Shown piece after piece: positions 4,610 to 33,673 of a DNA stretch of 39,507 bases. Numbering within the stretch: the stretch's first letter is position 1; every line of letters begins with the position of its first letter. Under the pieces are notes generated by a model. It did no database searches. It saw only the letters and a program-made list of their open reading frames with translations, and was not told the DNA's origin. The stretch is from a virus: positions 1-39,507 of IMG/VR virus record IMGVR_UViG_3300026531_000005. The stretch is one strand, 5' to 3'. The translations under genes were made by a program, and so were the position numbers.

Positions 4610-6030
4610 TTCGACAGTGCCTCAAACTGGGGCGGCATAAACGCCGGGTGGATAGGATTGACCTGGCGCACAAGTTCTCCGGCTCTCGCCGGATCCCGGT
4701 AGATTCGATTTGCCAGCGCCAGCGCAGGCTGGGAGGCGTTGAAGGAAAACGCCCCCATCTGTGCCAGATTGCCCCCCCTTGCCTGAAGGTCGGAAACGAC
4801 GGCCTTCCTGAGCTGACGCAATGCGTCATAGCTGGCGTCGTCACCACTATCGCCAGCAATCAGGATCTCGGAATCCAAAATTCCGACAACGTCCGTCTGC
4901 ACCCTCGCGGCATCCTCTTGCGAGAACGGCTGATAGTCCGCCGCCGCCTGGGCCAATGCTGCGATTGCCACGCGTCGAAGATGGGCAGAACATGCGACGT
5001 TGGCCGTTGCAATGGCCTGCCCGATAGGCGACTCGGTAGATTCGCCGGCGGGTTGGAACACGGCCAGGCGGCCAAGCATCGCCATGCCATCCGCCGGGTC
5101 AACGGCCGTCGCGGCAACAGACTGCACAAATGCATTCGCAGCATCGCCATATGCCGACGTATCGACGATATTCGCGGCCGCCTGTTGCAACTTGACGCCT
5201 GCAGCAACCACGGCCGCACTGGCGGCCACATTGGCGGTTAGCAGATCGGCCGCCGACGCGCTGCCGGAAGCCTTCCGATTGGAGGTCAGGAAGCCCGAAT
5301 TTCCGCCGCCAAAGAGGCGACCGAAATTGCCGCGCAGGCTCGACACTGCATTGAATACGCGTCGGACGCCGTTGACAATTCCAACCGTCATCTGGTAGTA
5401 GCGCACCGCGGTGTTGACGACCTGGCGAACCACTGCAACGCCCTGCCTGATCGCCGCAGCGACCTTGCGCGCCATGTCCAGCAGGCTACCCTTTCGAACG
5501 GCATCCGCAGCCTTGTTCACCTGGTCGCCCGTCGATTCACCGGCTTGCGGATACTTCCGTTCGCCGCTGACGATCAGCGACATCGTGAACTCGAATACGC
5601 GCCCCAGATCCTTCCGCTCCTCCAGCTCCAGATCCAGACACACAACGTTCGCGACAGTCCCCAGAGTCGGATGAACCAGCGTCTTCGGCCCGGCGGTCTC
5701 GCAGACCGTCAAAAAGGCTGCACGCTGGCCGACTACGCCGCCTCCCCCATAGATGGCGCTGTCCTCGATGAGGAACCCGTGGATCCGGAACTGCCTGGGA
5801 AGCTTCCCCTGATCCTCTGCCCATACCTCATCCCGATATGGATACACATGGACAGCCTGACGGCGACCAGCGTGCAGGCGCGCCCCGTTCACACCGAACG
5901 GAACGCCCCCATAGGAAGCTTGCTGCAGCGAAGCCTCCCAGCTGCCGGCGCCAGGCCCCAGCAGGTCGCCAACGGCGTTCGCAACGCCGCCAATGCTGCC
6001 TGCGACCTGTACGACGTCCGAGATTTTCAT
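4606..6030 (-). CDS. DNA circularisation protein N-like (Mu gp43)
   Basis: 474 residues. The N-terminal ~110 residues contain 'SWEASLQQASYGGVPFGVNG', 'GRRQAVHVYPYRDEVWAEDQ' and 'FRIHGFLIEDSAIYGGG', which mark the DNA_circ_N domain found in Mu gp43 and homologues. The remainder is alanine-rich and probably helical, with little to identify it. The family name comes from an old proposal of a role in Mu DNA; in contractile tails its position between tape measure and hub fits a baseplate/hub role. It overlaps both neighbours by ATGA. Confidence 0.87.
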   Translation of the reverse strand: MKISDVVQVAGSIGGVANAVGDLLGPGAGSWEASLQQASYGGVPFGVNGARLHAGRRQAVHVYPYRDEVWAEDQGKLPRQFRIHGFLIEDSAIYGGGGVVGQRAAFLTVCETAGPKTLVHPTLGTVANVVCLDLELEERKDLGRVFEFTMSLIVSGERKYPQAGESTGDQVNKAADAVRKGSLLDMARKVAAAIRQGVAVVRQVVNTAVRYYQMTVGIVNGVRRVFNAVSSLRGNFGRLFGGGNSGFLTSNRKASGSASAADLLTANVAASAAVVAAGVKLQQAAANIVDTSAYGDAANAFVQSVAATAVDPADGMAMLGRLAVFQPAGESTESPIGQAIATANVACSAHLRRVAIAALAQAAADYQPFSQEDAARVQTDVVGILDSEILIAGDSGDDASYDALRQLRKAVVSDLQARGGNLAQMGAFSFNASQPALALANRIYRDPARAGELVRQVNPIHPAFMPPQFEALSK

Positions 6031-8012
6031 GGCATAGCCCCCAGGCCCATTGAATAGTTCACGCGCGCTGACATGCCCGCGCCATCACCACTGTTTGTGT
6101 CGACGCGTGTACCCGGTGGCGCCGATACGTTGACCTGCAAAGTCAGCTTCTGCAGAGAAGCATCCAGCGCATCCTTGAGGCCATCGAAGCCCGGACCGTT
6201 GCCCATGCCCGGCGCTCCGGCAGCCGCGCCCAGTGCGGGATTGGCCGCTTGGGTAGATCCTGCGGCGCCGCCGCCCATGGCCCCAAGAATCCGGTCTGCC
6301 ATGATTCCGCGCTTGTACTTTTCCCCTTCCACGTCAGCAGGACGCTCGTGGTATTGGGACACGATGGCCGCAGCCCTGTTGGCGCTGGTCGCACGCGCCA
6401 ACAGGTCGCCAGCTACCCGCTGCTGGCCCGGACCGTTGCGCAGCTCCCAGTCGAAGAACTTCAGCTGGTCTTCCAGTGTCGAGTCGCGGATATCGCGCTT
6501 GAATACTCGCTTGAAATCTTCCTGACGGTCCGGGTGCCACTGACCGATCCCGTAGGCCTTGCCGCCATCCCCGACGCTGTAGGGATTGCCGCCGGACTCC
6601 TGAAGAATGTTCGCGGCGATACCGGCGGCCTGCTCTTTGCTCCATCCCATGCCCATGAACTTTTGAGCGATATCCAGGATCTTCGGATCGTTCGTTCCAC
6701 CGGGCGCATACTCCCCGGGGGTCAGATAGCTCTTGCCCTGCGCTCGCCCTGCGCTTGCCAGCGTAGCGTCTTCACCCGCGTTCAGGTCCTTGCTGTAGAA
6801 CAATGCGCCAGCGCCGACTGCATACGGGTTCAGGATCCGGGCGTACCAGGGCGCACCAGCCGCCGCTGCACCAGCCCCGGCCGCACCCGCTGCACCGGCA
6901 GCCGCCGTCGCCTGGAGGGCGGTGGCGGCCGCCTTGGCGGCCGTCAGGCTTGCCACCAAGGCCGCCAGGGAAACACCCCATTCGGCCATAGTCGCCGCGA
7001 ACTTGATTGCCACAATACCCGCCAAGACATTGCCCCACCCGCCAAAGGTGTCGGCGATCTTGTTCACGCGGTCGTACCACGCCCCCCAGTCGATACTGGT
7101 GATCCACGAGGTCAGCTTCCCGACCGCCTCGGCCAGTCGGTCCGCGATGTTCACGCGGTTCTCATCCAGCCATGAGGTCAGCTTCTCGATCATTGGCGTC
7201 AGGACTGGAATGAGCTTGTCGCCAATCGTGTTGGCAAGGGCGCCCGTGCTGGCCTTCAAACCGTTGATCTTGTCCTGGAAGGCCGAGGCGCGCTCGATCG
7301 CTTCCTCTCCGAAGATGTAACCCCTCTTTCCGGCCTCGGCCCGATCAGCGTCGAACGTTCCCCGCTGGATCATGGGCAACAACGACCCCATACCCAGTGC
7401 ATCCGCAGCGGTACGTTGACCAGCGGGGTTCTTGATCTTCCCCAGGGCGGTCATGATGTCGCGCTGGGTGCGCTCGTAGTCAATCTGGCCGTCCTTCCCC
7501 CGGGATATCCTCACGCCCAGCCGCGACAACAGCATCATGGCTTGAGGATTGGCCCCAAACGCGGCCTCTCGAATAGTGTTTTGCGACGACAGCATGCTCT
7601 GGTCGAACTGCTCGGCGGTCACACCGGCACGCTTGGCGGCGTAGTGCCAAGCCTGCAGGCCCCGCGTCGACATGCCCACCTGGCGCGAGGTTCTCTGCAG
7701 GCTCGATCCCAAGTCGCCCCATCGTTGTGCTAACGCTCCCACGCCGGCCGCGCCCGCCAGGCCGACAAGCGCCGACATGCCGGGGATGATCGAGGAAATG
7801 CGATCAGCGGCAGCTCGCGCGCCCTGCGAAATCGAATTCAGGCCTGACGTGATCTTTCCAAGCGCGGTAGCGCCAGTCTTGCCGATACTCGTTAGGCGCC
7901 CCGACATCCGGGCAGCTCTATCCCCGATACGCGAGAATGAGTCCCCGACCTTGTTGCTCACCTTCGACGCGTTATCTATCGCCGAGATTCGGAATGCCAG
8001 TTCATTGGCCAT
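6027..8012 (-). CDS. Tail tape-measure protein with C-terminal tail-lysozyme domain
   Basis: 661 residues from ATG at 8012 (MANELAFRISAIDNASKVSN), chosen because TGGAGG lies 7 bases upstream; a frame reaching 8060 lacks this. The first ~300 residues are helical tape-measure sequence. An alanine/glycine-rich hydrophobic stretch (about residues 350-390) may cross or insert in a membrane. From about residue 443 a lysozyme-like domain appears: 'GIAANILQESGGNPYSVGDG' with probable catalytic Glu472, then 'AYGIGQWHPDRQEDF', as in phage tail lysozymes that cut peptidoglycan during injection. The length sets tail length. The first bases overlap the frameshift extension of the gp41-like gene. Confidence 0.92.
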   Translation of the reverse strand: MANELAFRISAIDNASKVSNKVGDSFSRIGDRAARMSGRLTSIGKTGATALGKITSGLNSISQGARAAADRISSIIPGMSALVGLAGAAGVGALAQRWGDLGSSLQRTSRQVGMSTRGLQAWHYAAKRAGVTAEQFDQSMLSSQNTIREAAFGANPQAMMLLSRLGVRISRGKDGQIDYERTQRDIMTALGKIKNPAGQRTAADALGMGSLLPMIQRGTFDADRAEAGKRGYIFGEEAIERASAFQDKINGLKASTGALANTIGDKLIPVLTPMIEKLTSWLDENRVNIADRLAEAVGKLTSWITSIDWGAWYDRVNKIADTFGGWGNVLAGIVAIKFAATMAEWGVSLAALVASLTAAKAAATALQATAAAGAAGAAGAGAAAAGAPWYARILNPYAVGAGALFYSKDLNAGEDATLASAGRAQGKSYLTPGEYAPGGTNDPKILDIAQKFMGMGWSKEQAAGIAANILQESGGNPYSVGDGGKAYGIGQWHPDRQEDFKRVFKRDIRDSTLEDQLKFFDWELRNGPGQQRVAGDLLARATSANRAAAIVSQYHERPADVEGEKYKRGIMADRILGAMGGGAAGSTQAANPALGAAAGAPGMGNGPGFDGLKDALDASLQKLTLQVNVSAPPGTRVDTNSGDGAGMSARVNYSMGLGAMP

Positions 8013-22771: not shown

Positions 22772-22842
22772 TGGCGCGGTAGGAATCGAACCTGCGACAA
22801 CCGGGGTATGAACCCGACGCTCTGCCACTGAGCTACACCGCG
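22772..22842 (-). tRNA. tRNA-Met-like gene (CAT), initiator-like, T arm shortened
   Basis: The minus strand reads CGCGGTG-TA-GCTC-AGTGGCA-GAGC and an anticodon arm TCGGG-TTCATAC-CCCGG, giving a CAT anticodon with the GGG:CCC stem pairs characteristic of initiator tRNA. GCAGG-TTCGATT-CC follows, but the acceptor partner TACCGCG begins immediately, so three bases of the T stem are missing. CCA is encoded. It is either a decayed tRNA or an unusual one; lysidine-type tRNA-Ile is also possible for a CAT anticodon. The 5' end directly follows a terminator T tract. Confidence 0.7.
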
Positions 22843-22887: not shown

Positions 22888-22961
22888 TGGAGCGGGCTGC
22901 GGGAATCGAACCCGCCTAGGCGGCGTGGAAGGCCGCAGCCTGACCACTCGGCCAAGCCCGC
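22888..22961 (-). tRNA. tRNA-Gly (TCC)
   Basis: A complete 74-base cloverleaf including CCA: acceptor GCGGGCT/AGCCCGC, D arm GCCG...GGC, anticodon arm GCGGC-CTTCCAC-GCCGC (anticodon TCC), T arm GCGGG-TTCGATT-CCCGC, discriminator T. All stems pair well. It lies between two terminators, downstream of the candidate late regulator. Phage tRNAs may support late gene translation. Confidence 0.92.
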
Positions 22962-28693: not shown

Positions 28694-28992
28694 GCGCACC
28701 CCGTACTGCTGCGGACACGCATCCAAGGGTTGTAGGCCCAGCCACCGCCGCCCCCGCGCCGGATCAGACCGGCACGCGAGGCATCGAACAAGAACGAATC
28801 CACCGCGTTCGCGGCTGCGAGTTCGCGGGGACTGCTCGCCCAAGGGCTGACGGCGACCATGTCCTTAGCGACCGCGTCGCGGAGCGCAAAGACGTCGACA
28901 ACGCCACGGGTGTCGATGATTGTTTGACGAACACGCTCCACGGTCGCGGGCGGAACGCGGTAGCCGCGGAAGGTATGAAGGCATGCGGCCAT
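28687..28992 (-). CDS. Small protein, function unknown
   Basis: 101 residues starting MAACLHTFRGYRVPPATVER. The central 'VRQTIIDTRGVVDVFALRDA' and 'DSFLFDASRAGLIRRGGGGG' look like a winged-helix style fragment (a helix pair followed by a glycine turn and 'WAY'), but this is a loose impression. Start and stop overlap its neighbours (TGATG upstream, 7 bases downstream), which supports it as a real gene in the leftward operon. Confidence 0.65.
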   Translation of the reverse strand: MAACLHTFRGYRVPPATVERVRQTIIDTRGVVDVFALRDAVAKDMVAVSPWASSPRELAAANAVDSFLFDASRAGLIRRGGGGGWAYNPWMRVRSSTGCAC

Positions 28993-29180
28993 CAGGCGTC
29001 TCCCGAACCGATCCAGATCGCGTCTGGTGCGGGCGGCGTGCTGGTGTCGCCCGGAACGTGCTGGAGGAAGGGCCAGGGCCGCATGCCCAGGTGCTGTTCC
29101 GCGCGCGTCCCGGTGTACGGCGAAGGCGACTTGTCGGCCTTTTCGGCGGGGTGAAGGGGCGTGATGGTGGCGTTAGGCAT
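28992..29180 (-). CDS. Small proline-rich protein, function unknown
   Basis: 62 residues starting MPNATITPLHPAEKADKSPS. Proline, serine and charged residues dominate; 'RAEQHLGMRPWPFLQHVPGD' is the only compact part. No motif is recognised. It shares one base with the next gene and overlaps the YdaS-like gene by 8 bases, so it is probably co-translated in the leftward early operon. Confidence 0.6.
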   Translation of the reverse strand: MPNATITPLHPAEKADKSPSPYTGTRAEQHLGMRPWPFLQHVPGDTSTPPAPDAIWIGSGDA

Positions 29181-29427
29181 GGGCGCCCCCGGCGGTAGCG
29201 ACCAGCTTCAGCTCAGGCCAGATTTCCCAATAGTCGTCGGGGTGCAGGTCGATTCGGGTGACCTTTCTCTGCGAGTTTTGCTCGATGGCAACCGAGAGCT
29301 TTTCCCCTGCAGGGCGATAGCCATACATGACATTGCGCAGATGGGGCCAAGTGGTTTTGCACGCCGCAGCAAAGGCCTGTTTCTCGTCCGAGCTGAGGGT
29401 GTCGAGGAATGTCTTGAGTTTGCTCAT
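29173..29427 (-). CDS. YdaS/Cro-like transcription regulator
   Basis: 84 residues from ATG at 29427 (MSKLKTFLDTLSSDEKQAFA). 'FLDTLSSDEKQAFAAACKTT', 'WPHLRNVMYGYRPAGEKLSV' and 'AIEQNSQRKVTRIDLHPDDY' fit the YdaS/Cro superfamily: an HTH with a helix that reads DNA, then 'R.dl.P.dy'. Cro-type proteins shut off the repressor and favour lytic growth. It is the first gene of the leftward operon and starts about where a transcript from the promoter at 29435-29463 would begin, so the message may be nearly leaderless. Confidence 0.82.
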   Translation of the reverse strand: MSKLKTFLDTLSSDEKQAFAAACKTTWPHLRNVMYGYRPAGEKLSVAIEQNSQRKVTRIDLHPDDYWEIWPELKLVATAGGAHA

Positions 29428-29434
29428 AGCCGCC

Positions 29435-29463
29435 AATCTACACCGTTTGGTGCATGCAAGCAA
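29435..29463 (-). promoter_or_regulatory. Leftward early promoter (TTGCTT-17-TAGATT) with operator in spacer
   Basis: On the minus strand, TTGCTT (29463-29458) and TAGATT (29440-29435) are separated by 17 bases, and the palindrome at 29439-29454 fills most of the spacer. The predicted start (~29428) falls one base before the YdaS-like ATG. A second weaker pair (TTACAC, about 18 bases, TGATAC) lies upstream near 29501-29472. Confidence 0.65.
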
Positions 29464-29501
29464 CCATTCGGTGTATCACCAAATGGTTTAACTATGGTGT
29501 A
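29439..29501. promoter_or_regulatory. Cluster of operator sites between YdaS-like and repressor genes
   Basis: TACACCGTTTGGTGCA at 29439-29454 is a 16-bp near-perfect palindrome. Related sites are ACCATTCGGTGTA at 29463-29475, TCACCAAATGGTTTA at 29476-29490 and a half site GGTGTA at 29496-29501. The common form is TRCACC-N4-GGTGYA. Three or four closely spaced sites between divergent regulator genes is the standard lambdoid operator plan. Confidence 0.8.
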
Positions 29502-29539: not shown

Positions 29540-30217
29540 ATGAAAAACGTCGTCGACCTTCGCCGTCACAACCTCGCCCGCCTGGTGGATGAGCACGGCC
29601 TAGCCACCATCGCACGTAAGGCCGGCAAGCCCGCAAGTCAGATCAACGATATGGTCGTCGGGCGGAAGTCCTTCGGGGAGAAGGTGGCCCGCTCTCTTGA
29701 GAAAGCTCTGGATCCTGTGGCGCCGCCCATGTGGCTAGACGCAGAATCGAATTTCGCGGGTGTGATTCCAGGCCAAGGCAACGCAGCAGCCTCCGACATC
29801 GCCATTCCTCAATTCGACACGGGCGGCAAGATGGGCAATGGCCTGGAGCTGCGAGACCAGCCCGGCATCATCAAGAGCTGGAACGTGAGCCTAGATTGGC
29901 TTAACCAGAATGTGCGCGGGGCTACCTCGGCAGCAAACCTTTGCATCGTGACCGGGTTTGGCGATTCCATGCAACCCATGTTCAATCCCGGCGATCCGCT
30001 GCTGGTCGACCGGGGCGTCCGTGAAGCAGCATATGACGCGGTCTACTTTTTCAGGGTTGGCCACGAAGGATTCATCAAGCGCTTGCAACGCATCCCTGGC
30101 AAGGGGTTGGTCGCTCTATCAGAAAACTCCGCCTACCAGTCCTGGGTGATTGAGCCAGACATGGATTTTGAGATATTTGGGCGGGTGCTAATCGTGTGGC
30201 GAAGCCAATTGTTCTAA
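29540..30217 (+). CDS. S24-family (LexA/CI-type) prophage repressor
   Basis: 225 residues. The N-terminal ~55 residues have an HTH ('LATIARKAGKPASQINDMVV'). The peptidase-like domain has 'TGFGDSMQPMFNPGDPLLVD' with Ser143 and 'VGHEGFIKRLQRIPG' with Lys180, 37 residues apart as in LexA. The linker has one Ala-Gly (73-74), farther from Ser143 than in lambda CI, so RecA-stimulated cleavage is unproven. Operator sites stand on both sides of the gene. It keeps both early operons off in lysogeny. Confidence 0.92.
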   Translation: MKNVVDLRRHNLARLVDEHGLATIARKAGKPASQINDMVVGRKSFGEKVARSLEKALDPVAPPMWLDAESNFAGVIPGQGNAAASDIAIPQFDTGGKMGNGLELRDQPGIIKSWNVSLDWLNQNVRGATSAANLCIVTGFGDSMQPMFNPGDPLLVDRGVREAAYDAVYFFRVGHEGFIKRLQRIPGKGLVALSENSAYQSWVIEPDMDFEIFGRVLIVWRSQLF

Positions 30218-30230
30218 GTCACCCCCAACC

Positions 30231-30277
30231 AAAAAGCCGCGCCACACCCCAATAGGTGTACCCAGCGCGGCTTTTTT
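30231..30277 (+). terminator. Terminator of the repressor gene
   Basis: GCCGCGC (30236-30242) pairs with GCGCGGC (30265-30271), preceded by AAAAA and followed by TTTTTT. The A and T runs on either side allow termination in both directions. The loop contains ACACCCCAATAGGTGTA, which resembles an operator with a longer spacer. Confidence 0.88.
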
Positions 30278-30278
30278 A

Positions 30279-30307
30279 TTGACTTCTTATGCACCATTTG
30301 GTGTAAT
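30279..30307 (+). promoter_or_regulatory. Rightward early promoter (TTGACT-17-TGTAAT) with operator in spacer
   Basis: TTGACT (30279-30284), 17-base spacer, TGTAAT (30302-30307). The palindrome TGCACCATTTGGTGTA (30290-30305) occupies the spacer and -10 and matches the operators at 29439-29501. Bound repressor would block RNA polymerase. The promoter drives the operon beginning at 30603. Confidence 0.85.
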
Positions 30308-30602
30308 GCATAAACGCTGTTGAAGCGTGGCACTACCCCCGCAGTCCAGCCCGAAGTTGGGAAGCCCGGACAGAGTGCATCGGTGGATCTACGGAAAGAC
30401 CGACGGGAGGGCGAACAGCTGGTAAGACACGCAATTTTGATCAGAAACCGGTTTGGCCCTGATTGAAATGGCGGTGGAGAATACGCAACGCAATCTCCAC
30501 GCAAAAGAAAGGCCCCAAACCTGTTAGCGCAGGCGGGGCCGATCAATGAAGTACCGCAGTTAGCGCTGCGGCCCTCTACCTGGACGGCTTAGGAGGCCAT
30601 TT
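30308..30602 (+). other. Long leader of the rightward operon with three hairpins
   Basis: No gene is supported in these 295 bases. GTGGAGA/TCTCCAC (30474-30500), GGCCCC/GGGGCC (30511-30540) and CCGCAG/CTGCGG (30554-30571) form successive stem-loops ahead of the AGGAGG at 30591-30596. The second is followed on the minus strand by TTTCTTTT and could end leftward transcripts. Other roles, such as antitermination, are open. Confidence 0.5.
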
Positions 30603-31034
30603 ATGTCCAAGCAAGAAATCCGCCCCACGGGCGCGGAGGGGATTCCTACGCCTGCAAATATACAGCAGGCCCAGCAATTGGGAAAGACCCACCCCCTTCT
30701 CACAAGCTTCCTCGCTGGAAGCATCCCCGAGAACACTCGTGCGCTGTTGGTCACGCTGAATGAAGCAGGCCAGGTCGGCGTCAGTGAGGTGCAATTCGGC
30801 GATTCCGTTTTGAACATCAGAACGGAGCTGCGCAAGCACTTGAACGAGTGCCCCTTCAGCGACGAATGGTTGCGCGATCTGCGCGACTTCATCAATCGGA
30901 AATTGGAAGCCCGCACCCATGCGGCTCGTTGCGGCGGGGTTGCTATCCCCTCCACCAGCGGAGACGCCTTTTCCGTCTTCAACACCCCGCCGACCCAATG
31001 GGCGACTGACGGTTACGCGGGAGAAATGGCATGA
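30603..31034 (+). CDS. Early protein of unknown function
   Basis: 143 residues starting MSKQEIRPTGAEGIPTPANI, with an excellent AGGAGG site. The middle 'ENTRALLVTLNEAGQVGVSE' and 'DSVLNIRTELRKHLNECPFS' followed by 'EWLRDLRDFINRKLEARTHA' suggests a small alpha/beta fold. No family is recognised. It is the first gene after the repressed rightward promoter and overlaps the metallopeptidase gene by ATGA, so a regulatory or host-takeover role is possible but unproven. Confidence 0.75.
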   Translation: MSKQEIRPTGAEGIPTPANIQQAQQLGKTHPLLTSFLAGSIPENTRALLVTLNEAGQVGVSEVQFGDSVLNIRTELRKHLNECPFSDEWLRDLRDFINRKLEARTHAARCGGVAIPSTSGDAFSVFNTPPTQWATDGYAGEMA

Positions 31035-31786
31035 GAAAGGTCGTCACCCTCTCGCATGAGCAATACCGGGGCTTTGCGGAATTGTGCAAGGCCGAGGCAG
31101 GCCAAGCTCTGGAGGTTTCCAGCACCGACGCAATGAATGGCGACTGGGCGCAAGCCGGTTTCATGGCCTGGGAAGTCATCGCCGATGTCCGCGCCAGCCA
31201 GGCAGCTTTCGCCCTGGAGGTCTCCCGCATTGAACTGGCCGATTCCATCATCGTCGGCGACTTCCGTCGCGCCGGCCGGTCCCGCCCCGAAACCAACTGG
31301 GACGCCCTGACCGACGACGAAATCTATCCGTTCATCGTGTGGCACGAAATCGGCCACCGCCGCGACAACTTCAACATGCTCGACGTGATGATGGCGCGCA
31401 GCAACTTCCCGGACGAGGTGGTCAAGCGGATCCGCTGGGTCAATGAAGTTTTGGCAGACCGCTTCGCGTGGGCGCAGATCCGCCCCGGCGAACTGCTGGA
31501 AAAGACCGAAGGCGGCAAGCGCGACGCGCAGCTGATCGAAGACACGATCGCGCTCATGGCCCAGCACTGCCAGCGAGCCAAGTTCAAGCCGCGCCCTATC
31601 CCCGGGGGCCAGTATGCCCACGTCTCGCCGCGCATGCTCGAAAGTCCGCGCCTGGCCGCCTTTGTCGGCCCCGACGTCCATCCCGAGCTGCTGGCTCACT
31701 ACGTGTGGAAGAGCGCCAACCGGCCGATCCGCAGTCGTCGCCCCGCGGCGATCGCGAATCACCAGACGGGCCAGGTGGTCGCATGA
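31031..31786 (+). CDS. HEIGH-motif metallopeptidase, ImmA/IrrE-like
   Basis: 251 residues. 'YPFIVWHEIGHRRDNFN' gives HExxH at residues 105-109 (His105, Glu106, His109), and 'VNEVLADRFAWAQI' supplies the probable third ligand Glu139 with the ExxADxFA pattern of ImmA/IrrE proteases. ImmA cleaves phage or ICE repressors, and IrrE controls DNA-damage response in Deinococcus. Here the enzyme is encoded in an operon controlled by the nearby S24 repressor, which is a possible substrate. The N-terminal ~95 residues are unlike the usual HTH-fused forms. Confidence 0.8.
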   Translation: MRKVVTLSHEQYRGFAELCKAEAGQALEVSSTDAMNGDWAQAGFMAWEVIADVRASQAAFALEVSRIELADSIIVGDFRRAGRSRPETNWDALTDDEIYPFIVWHEIGHRRDNFNMLDVMMARSNFPDEVVKRIRWVNEVLADRFAWAQIRPGELLEKTEGGKRDAQLIEDTIALMAQHCQRAKFKPRPIPGGQYAHVSPRMLESPRLAAFVGPDVHPELLAHYVWKSANRPIRSRRPAAIANHQTGQVVA

Positions 31787-32043
31787 CGAAGCCGCGCAAT
31801 CCCACCGAGCAACTGGCCGCCGCCACGCGCGGGCGCGCCCTTTACATCCGCCTCTACGACAACGCCACGGCCGAGCTGGGCAAGGCGAAGGCAGAGCTGC
31901 AGGACGAGCGCATCCGACACGCGCAGGCCCTCTCCACGCTCGCCAACGTGGCCCACGCGTTGGAGACCGGCACGCCCCCGGACACCGTTCTCACCATCGT
32001 CCGAATCGCTCTGCGGCTCGCCCCCAACGGGCAGCCCCTGTGA
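31783..32043 (+). CDS. Small helical protein, function unknown
   Basis: 86 residues starting MTKPRNPTEQLAAATRGRAL. Residues 20-60 are a charged, alanine-rich helix ('NATAELGKAKAELQDERIRH'), likely a coiled coil. No family is recognised. ATGA overlap with the metallopeptidase gene suggests the two are made together, perhaps as partners. Confidence 0.7.
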   Translation: MTKPRNPTEQLAAATRGRALYIRLYDNATAELGKAKAELQDERIRHAQALSTLANVAHALETGTPPDTVLTIVRIALRLAPNGQPL

Positions 32044-32075: not shown

Positions 32076-32756
32076 ATGACTTCGCTGATTTCCTCTGAAG
32101 ATACCAAACCGCTGAACCACGTCTACCTGTCCCGCGCGGCACTGAAAGCGGCCTTGCGCATCGCGGCCAAGCAGGACATCCGCTATTACCTCAACGGCGT
32201 CCACGTTGAGGCTGACAGCACCACCACCCGCCTGATCGCTACGGACGGGCATCGGATGTTGATCCTCCATCGCAACTCGGAGAACGGCATCCAGGAGCCG
32301 GTTTCCTTCACCATCCCGCGCGCCATCGTGCGCCAGATCATCGCTGGCAGTGGCAAGGGCCTCGCCCACGCTCAATTCGACATCCAGCGCGAAGGGCCGA
32401 GCCTCTGGTCCGCACCGTTGGTGCACATCGGCGCTTCCGCACGCCTGACGTTCGCCCAATCGGACGGGAAGTTTCCGAACTGGCGCACCGTCGTGCCCAC
32501 CACCATCAGCGGCAAGGCCGCGCAGCTTAACCCGGCCTATTTGGCTGACATGAACGCCGCAGCCGACGACCTGGGTAGTCGTTTTGTCTCGGTGACGCAC
32601 AACGGCTCATCCCCCGCCTTGGTTCTACCCGAGGGATACATCCCCTGGGAATTCATCGGCCTCGTCATGCCCATGCGGGAAACGAGCGCCCCCACAAAAT
32701 GGACCGTGCCCGCATGGTGCGCGATGCCCAATCAGTCCCAGGAGCAATCTCAATGA
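32076..32756 (+). CDS. Beta sliding clamp-like protein (shortened DnaN)
   Basis: 226 residues. '[20 protein letters not shown]' and '[15 protein letters not shown]' match the start of DnaN domain II (E. coli: QDVRYYLNG, ATDGHRLAV). '[18 protein letters not shown]' and '[13 protein letters not shown]' follow (E. coli: DGRFPDYRRVLP), and 'LVMPMRE' matches the clamp C-terminus (VVMPMRL). Domain I is absent and domain III is shortened, so only about one and a half of three domains remain. It could form a small ring or bind polymerase partners. Confidence 0.82.
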
Positions 32757-33673
32757 GCAACGCCACCGCACAAGCCTGGTTCAGGAACCTCCGAATTTTC
32801 CGCCTTTCGGGCGCATGGCCTCTCGCCGGCGAAGCCCTGGAAGAAGCGCTGAACCGAGCCGCCTTCCAACCGGGCAACAACCTGGAAATGCAGTCGTTGG
32901 GCTGGGTCCCTCCGCGCGAAGGCGGCGGCCTGGCTCACGTCGTCGGCGGACAGATCCTCCTGACCCTGCGCGCCGGCCAGAAGCTGCTGCCGGCCAAGGT
33001 GATCAACCAGGTCGCCAAGGTCCGCGCCCAGGAAATCGAAGAGCAGCAGGGCTACAAGCCGGGGCGCAAGCAGATGAAGGAAATCAAGGAGCGCGTCACC
33101 GACGAACTCCTGCCGCGCGCCTTCAACGTGTACCGCGATACCCGCGTGTGGATCGACCCCGCCAACCGCTGGCTGGTCATAGACGCCGCTGCCTCGGCCA
33201 AGGCCGATGAGGTCGTCGGCCTCCTGTCCAAGTGCCTGGATCCGCTCCCGCTCGAAAACCTGTATGTCGTCCAGTCGCCGGCCTCGGCCATGACGGGCTG
33301 GCTTGCGGAAGACGAGGCGCCGTCCAACTTCAGCATCGACCAGGACACCGAGCTGCGTTCCTCGGGCGAAAGCGGCGCCGCCATCCGCTACGTCAAGCAC
33401 TCCATCGACGCAGACGACGCCCGCCGACACATCCAGTCCGGCAAGCAATGCACCCGCCTCGCGCTGACCTGGGCCGACCGTATCTCGTTCGTGCTGACCG
33501 AGGAACTGGACATCAAGCGCGTCGCCCCCCTCGACGTCATCAAGGAAGGCCCGGGCGCCATCACCACCAACGACGACGAAAAATTCGATTCGGATATGGC
33601 GCTCATGACCGGCGAACTCGCCAAGCTGTTGGCCGAACTGGTCGACGCGCTCGGCGGCGAAAAGCAATTCTGA
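32753..33673 (+). CDS. rdgC: RdgC recombination-associated protein
   Basis: 306 residues, near the host RdgC length (about 300). '[20 protein letters not shown]', '[10 protein letters not shown]', '[20 protein letters not shown]', '[20 protein letters not shown]' and '[20 protein letters not shown]' follow the RdgC pattern along its whole length. RdgC forms a ring on double-stranded DNA and limits RecA activity. It overlaps the clamp-like gene by ATGA and precedes the second ParB-like gene. A role in phage recombination or RecA control is likely. Confidence 0.93.

Follow-up and report, generated by a model that had tools for sequence, protein, structure and literature searches.

A putative zinc metallopeptidase in the early operon of a temperate phage, inherited independently of the neighboring repressor gene

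The window, which is the whole stretch of 39,507 nucleotides analyzed here, is a 39.5-kb virus record, and the phage represented by it is temperate and related to prophages of Achromobacter. Its regulatory region contains the gene for an S24-type, CI-like repressor (29540 to 30217, +; Pfam PF00717, 1.2e-15) with the catalytic residues Ser143 and Lys180 and, divergently oriented, the gene for a YdaS/Cro-like regulator (29173 to 29463, −) with a weak match to Pfam YdaS (2.7e-4) and matches to phrog_35 and phrog_10248. Three operator-like sites of the ACACC-N4-GGTGT type, recognized as palindromic repeats, are positioned between the Cro-like gene and the repressor gene (29440 to 29489). The repressor gene is followed by an inverted repeat with a T-run (repeat I1; 30226 to 30281, +), probably its terminator, and by a probable early promoter that was read as TTGACT-17-TGTAAT (30279 to 30307, +). 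This promoter is overlapped by the operator-like palindrome GCACCATTTGGTGT (30291 to 30304), which is of the same kind as the three sites upstream of the repressor gene, so that the early operon is very probably controlled by the repressor.

The first open reading frame (ORF) of this operon (30603 to 31034, +) possesses a conserved start, MSKxxIRPxGAEG, and a variable remainder; in the window and in loci L003, L011, L031, L033, and L038, the start was kept as MSKxxIRPxGAEGISHPR, and the remaining parts were unrelated. The following ORF (31031 to 31786, +) is open, begins with ATG, codes for 251 amino acids, and overlaps the stop of the first ORF and the start of the next one by a few bases each. 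It is a real gene and encodes a putative zinc metallopeptidase of an unnamed family. An earlier note on this DNA had described it as the second gene of a repressor-controlled early operon, and the order of the ORFs together with the probable promoter under its operator-like palindrome agrees with this description. Downstream are an ORF of 86 amino acids (31783 to 32043, +), which often accompanies the metallopeptidase in Achromobacter-type loci, and then, between 32076 and 33673, early genes for a DNA polymerase III beta (sliding clamp)-like protein (32076 to 32756, +; Pfam PF02767, 3.7e-8; TIGR00663, 1.4e-10) and for an RdgC-family protein (32753 to 33673, +; Pfam PF04381, 1.5e-112). Elsewhere in the record, an Rfam Betaproteobacteria-1 RNA (RF02932; 24725 to 24849, −; 86 bits) and two tRNA matches (22776 to 22838 and 22891 to 22961, −) were located.

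Upstream of the first ORF, the early operon contains a leader element of two hairpins (30508 to 30582, +), GGCCCC..CCTG-loop-CAGG..GGGGCC followed by CCGCAG-loop-CTGCGG. Both loops match within a given phage, with TTAGCG twice in the window, TTGACG twice in L003, and TTCGCAG twice in L011 and L032, and with inexact matches in L031, L033, and L040. Across 12 loci, 98.6% of the pairs held, compared to 30 to 58% in slid controls, and 8 of the 18 pairs varied on both sides. The element was positioned at 5750 to 5821 in L003, 8500 to 8572 in L011, and 6235 to 6308 in L032, and was located in other loci as well. Of 40 loci, 22 gave high scores with a covariance model, and 11 of these had served for its training or came from the pattern search; the model found the element in 4 of 268 genomes; no Rfam family was found for the leader at the gathering threshold. 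The element occurs also in phages without the protease, and L040 contains a second, weaker match (6756 to 6826, +; 34.9 bits) directly upstream of the metallopeptidase gene. The putR site of HK022, located about 270 nt behind PR, has a size of about 70 nt and contains two stem-loops (PMC9378689); with 72 nt, two stem-loops, and a distance of about 200 nt from the probable start, the leader element in the window is similar. The twin hairpin is a candidate for an antitermination RNA or an RNA-protein recognition site. A second copy was not found at the leftward leader within the window. The leftward early leader contains an ORF (approximately 28990 to 29070, −) with variable starts and the strongly conserved end HIPGDTxTPPAPGAVWIGSGDA, which is also present in L003, L011, L014, L016, L031 to L040, and L107 to L125; no convincing shared RNA fold was found for the PPAPGAVWIG stretch.

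The deduced metallopeptidase contains HEIGH at residues 105 to 109 (codons 31343 to 31357, +) and NEVLADRFAW at residues 138 to 147 (codons 31442 to 31471, +). Both motifs had been read correctly before, including Glu106 as the glutamate of HExxH, and Glu139 is the probable third zinc ligand. In an alignment of 28 relatives, residues H105, E106, G108, H109, N138, E139, L141, A142, D143, R144, A146, and W147 were invariant despite a decrease of the overall identity to 26%, which indicates that the motif is not a product of chance; within HEIGH, Ile107 alone was exchanged, in relative A3. The dN/dS ratios between close pairs of enzymes were 0.07 to 0.12, with about 0.12 for the window and L003, and this purifying selection indicates that the function of the enzyme has been maintained. 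In two confident AlphaFold models (pLDDT 90.2 and 91.0, pTM 0.86 and 0.87), each of the motifs HEIGH and ADRFAW occupied a helix of its own. With the zinc-metallopeptidase signature, which had been proposed before, conserved as HExxH and ExxADR in all 28 relatives, the protein is probably an active enzyme that would bind zinc and cleave proteins.

The family is known from about 30 phage or prophage loci. A genome scan revealed one close relative with 79 to 81% identity, in Achromobacter ruhlandii LMG 1866 (L003), five further relatives, with identities down to about 31%, came from 268 genomes belonging to the same taxonomic family, and a profile search of viral contigs yielded 29 loci. When an order-wide sample of 399 genomes was searched with the family alignment, the known genome alone was recovered. 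No functional annotation was found for any of the relatives. Where loci were read in detail, the gene is located in the early rightward region adjoining genes for Cro, KilA-N, AntA, or Rha proteins; in L012, L018, and L029, primase or integrase genes are close to it instead, and no repressor was recognized in the vicinity.

The window protein had no match in Pfam, PHROGs, NCBIfam, the PDB sequences, the INPHARED phages, or the PLSDB plasmids, nor was a match obtained when INPHARED was searched with two distant relatives, and the enzyme family is without an entry in Pfam, NCBIfam, or PHROGs. The M78 model (PF06114) did not match the window protein and gave, for the best of 28 members, an E value of 0.093, so that the Pfam cutoff was not reached. 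The motif arrangement of M78, HExxH with a downstream ExxA[ND]xFA, was nevertheless present, with a spacing after HExxH of 26 to 34 versus 15 to 29 in the M78 set, and a Phe at position −4 from the first His was found in every relative of the enzyme and in 21 of 23 M78 proteins. Profile-profile comparison to the M78 set resulted in probabilities of 62 and 40%, restricted to columns 71 to 111, about 40 columns around HExxH, while a split M78 set used as control found itself at 100% over 239 columns. The same comparison (hhalign) to an M48 set gave 11 to 15%, and M48 membership was rejected on the basis of this weaker match; the M48 model (PF01435) touched one family member at an E value of 0.019, without reaching the cutoff, and did not match the window protein.

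The PADLOC model for CapP matched the catalytic core only, in L030 with an E value of 1.9e-6 (residues 82 to 151, both motifs) and in L012 with 1.3e-3, which corresponds to 63 of 242 profile positions in L030 and fewer in L012, and most family members gave no match. Membership in CapP was not supported either: a match over the whole model was not reached, and the neighbors that were read were phage early genes. A single family member touched the metallo-protease phrog_87 at an E value of 0.043. A Foldseek search with two models (pLDDT 90 to 91), performed without a positive control, found no zincin in the PDB or in the viral library BFVD; its matches were meaningless, with TM values mostly below 0.3 and one at 0.29/0.38 without annotation, and were treated as uninformative. 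Since the resemblance to M78 and CapP was limited to the core, “ImmA/IrrE-like zincin” is a reasonable name at the level of the catalytic core. The fit to ImmA/IrrE claimed in the earlier note holds to this extent, but it does not support membership in M78, for which no curated threshold was reached.

Evaluation of the enzyme as a repressor protease needs to consider the linker of the repressor. In LexA, lambda CI, and UmuD, the RecA-type spacing is an Ala-Gly (or Cys-Gly) about 35 to 38 residues before the catalytic Ser. No such pair is present at this distance in the repressor encoded at 29540 to 30217; the sole Ala-Gly of its linker, A73-G74, lies 70 residues ahead of Ser143, which is as unusually far as had been noticed before. 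The closest relatives of this repressor have no Ala-Gly at the equivalent position, and it contains GGKMG, with a Gly-Gly, where the related repressors of L033 and L040 have AAGAMG, with an Ala-Gly. The repressor of the window belongs to a class of S24 repressors with TGG[KA]MG replacing the usual Ala-Gly region, of which further examples were seen in Bordetella phage IFTN9 and in Acidovorax phage AP1. In the repressor of L003, WVQAG is located 38 residues before the Ser, a distance typical of repressors that undergo RecA-type cleavage, such as lambda CI.

If the enzyme cleaved the S24 repressor of its own phage, leaky expression could flip a positive-feedback switch to lytic growth. In agreement with this, the gene belongs to an operon that the repressor would control, its core resembles that of ImmA/IrrE and CapP, which cleave helix-turn-helix (HTH) repressors (PMC10904395), and in the repressor of the window, Ser143 is not preceded by an Ala-Gly at the usual distance. 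The distribution of the two genes, however, speaks against such a switch. The same enzyme is found beside unrelated repressors, some of them canonical. At the place of the operators in the window, L003 possesses different repeats, three copies of the AATAGYAAAGTATTG type, and a different repressor in the same layout, indicating that repressor and operators are replaced together, as one cassette, and that the enzyme is retained. Regulators without detectable similarity accompany enzymes with 92% identity in L031 and L032, and regulators are also unlike each other beside similar enzymes in the window and L003 (79% enzyme identity), L023 and L042 (76%), and L024 and L025 (84%). The enzymes of L014 and L033 are 95% identical, with repressors alike over the HTH half only, and in the reverse case of L033 and L040, the repressors are 88% and the enzymes 63% identical. 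In L013 and L014, the recognized regulator is an HTH protein of 135 amino acids without an S24 domain.

Phages without the enzyme were found by searching viral records for the same operon leader. Six leader-sharing records of 38 to 42 kb (G655, G656, G657, G660, G662, and G664) contained neither the enzyme nor an M78 protein anywhere in the record, with the restriction that IMG/VR records may be incomplete, and their repressors were 87 to 97% identical to those of enzyme-bearing phages. No M78 protein as a substitute was found in 12 records of enzyme-less phages. The repressor of Bordetella phage vB_BaM-IFTN9 is 50% identical to that of the window and also without the expected Ala-Gly, but this phage, whose record states that it was obtained by induction with mitomycin C, carries neither the enzyme nor an M78 protein. 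Taken together, the exchange of repressors, the near-identical repressors without the enzyme, and IFTN9 indicate that repressors of this kind do not need the enzyme. The noncanonical linker was rejected as the reason for the protease because the enzyme family adjoins canonical Ala-Gly repressors in L003 and L031, and because the enzyme is missing from phages with near-identical repressors.

A protease gene that adjoins its cognate repressor gene and is co-inherited with it, as in the ImmR-ImmA pair, was not found here. To judge from these comparisons, the genes for enzyme and repressor evolve independently across phages, and the enzyme is not a dedicated partner of the neighboring repressor. 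ImmR-ImmA and MpaR are organized differently, with the protease gene directly downstream of its repressor gene and both expressed together (PMC6872733). The metallopeptidase gene is placed behind the putative repressor terminator, outside the repressor operon, and should not be expressed in the lysogen, where the operon promoter would be covered by the repressor. In this case, the enzyme could not trigger induction and at most could reinforce it. The feedback switch with the adjacent repressor, as proposed in the earlier note, is contradicted by these data and is unlikely, although a protease with a taste for a feature common to many repressors may be compatible with the exchange of repressors.

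With about even confidence, the enzyme is interpreted as an accessory early zinc protease with a target other than, or not specifically, the repressor of its own phage. The gene at 31031 to 31786 would encode a catalytically competent small zinc metalloprotease, a zincin using HExxH and a downstream Glu ligand, as an accessory member of the early lytic operon. It would be among the first genes switched on, so that the enzyme would be made right after infection or induction and would then cleave a protein that is not the neighboring repressor, or would not be specific for this repressor. The most likely class of substrates would be regulators or defense proteins, either from the host or from a competing element.

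This interpretation as an accessory protease has two main specific versions. The enzyme may act in trans as an anti-repressor and attack the repressors of further phages, whether resident or superinfecting, comparable to MpaR of Listeria, a protease that acts on several prophages (PMC6872733). The missing pairing with the own repressor, yet with antirepressor-type genes (KilA-N, AntA, and Rha) often nearby, would agree with such a function, but no sequence feature common to possible targets was shown and MpaR itself is encoded next to its own repressor, so that this version has a low probability. The early accessory position and the patchy presence among otherwise similar phages could also mean that the enzyme destroys a host defense or restriction protein early in infection. 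A link to known anti-defense families did not appear, however, and the PADLOC matches were those to the protease core of CapP, which makes a function in counter-defense improbable to a similar degree. That the zincin fold serves binding only would be in line with the absence of a known substrate and of any functionally annotated relative but is very doubtful, given that none of the 28 relatives deviates from HExxH with its catalytic Glu.

Extending the interpretation as an accessory protease, it may tentatively be proposed that the family represents a new kind of phage weapon. In this view, an accessory zinc protease, made early and independent of the repressor, would eliminate regulators or defense proteins belonging to the host or to rival mobile elements, and it would be carried by unrelated temperate phages as well as by elements associated with primase or integrase genes. 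Proteins with HExxH that are encoded in the regulatory regions of phages are easily labeled as ImmA-like repressor proteases. Such an assignment should be checked by the joint travel of protease and repressor, which is absent here, and the substrate of this enzyme family would provide insights into early phage-host interaction.

Compared to known systems, the enzyme shares with the M48 peptidases of the HtpX type (PF01435) the motif order HExxH ... ExxAD, but the M48 sequences shown are without the Phe at −4. CapP, the CBASS-associated protease of the CapH-CapP pair, responds to single-stranded DNA, as does PprI (PMC10904395); unlike CapP, the enzyme has no CapH partner or CBASS genes recognized beside it. 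MpaR of Listeria, a DUF955 anti-repressor protease, is likewise a metalloprotease of a phage element that acts on regulators, an activity proposed for the enzyme here, but mpaR adjoins the gene of its CI-like repressor and is co-transcribed with it (PMC6872733). With ImmA of ICEBs1 and M78, the enzyme has in common HExxH followed by E-x-x-A-[ND]-x-F-A, the Phe at −4, and the location in the regulatory region of a mobile element; unlike ImmA, it is not encoded beside and together with a cognate repressor but is swapped independently of the repressor.
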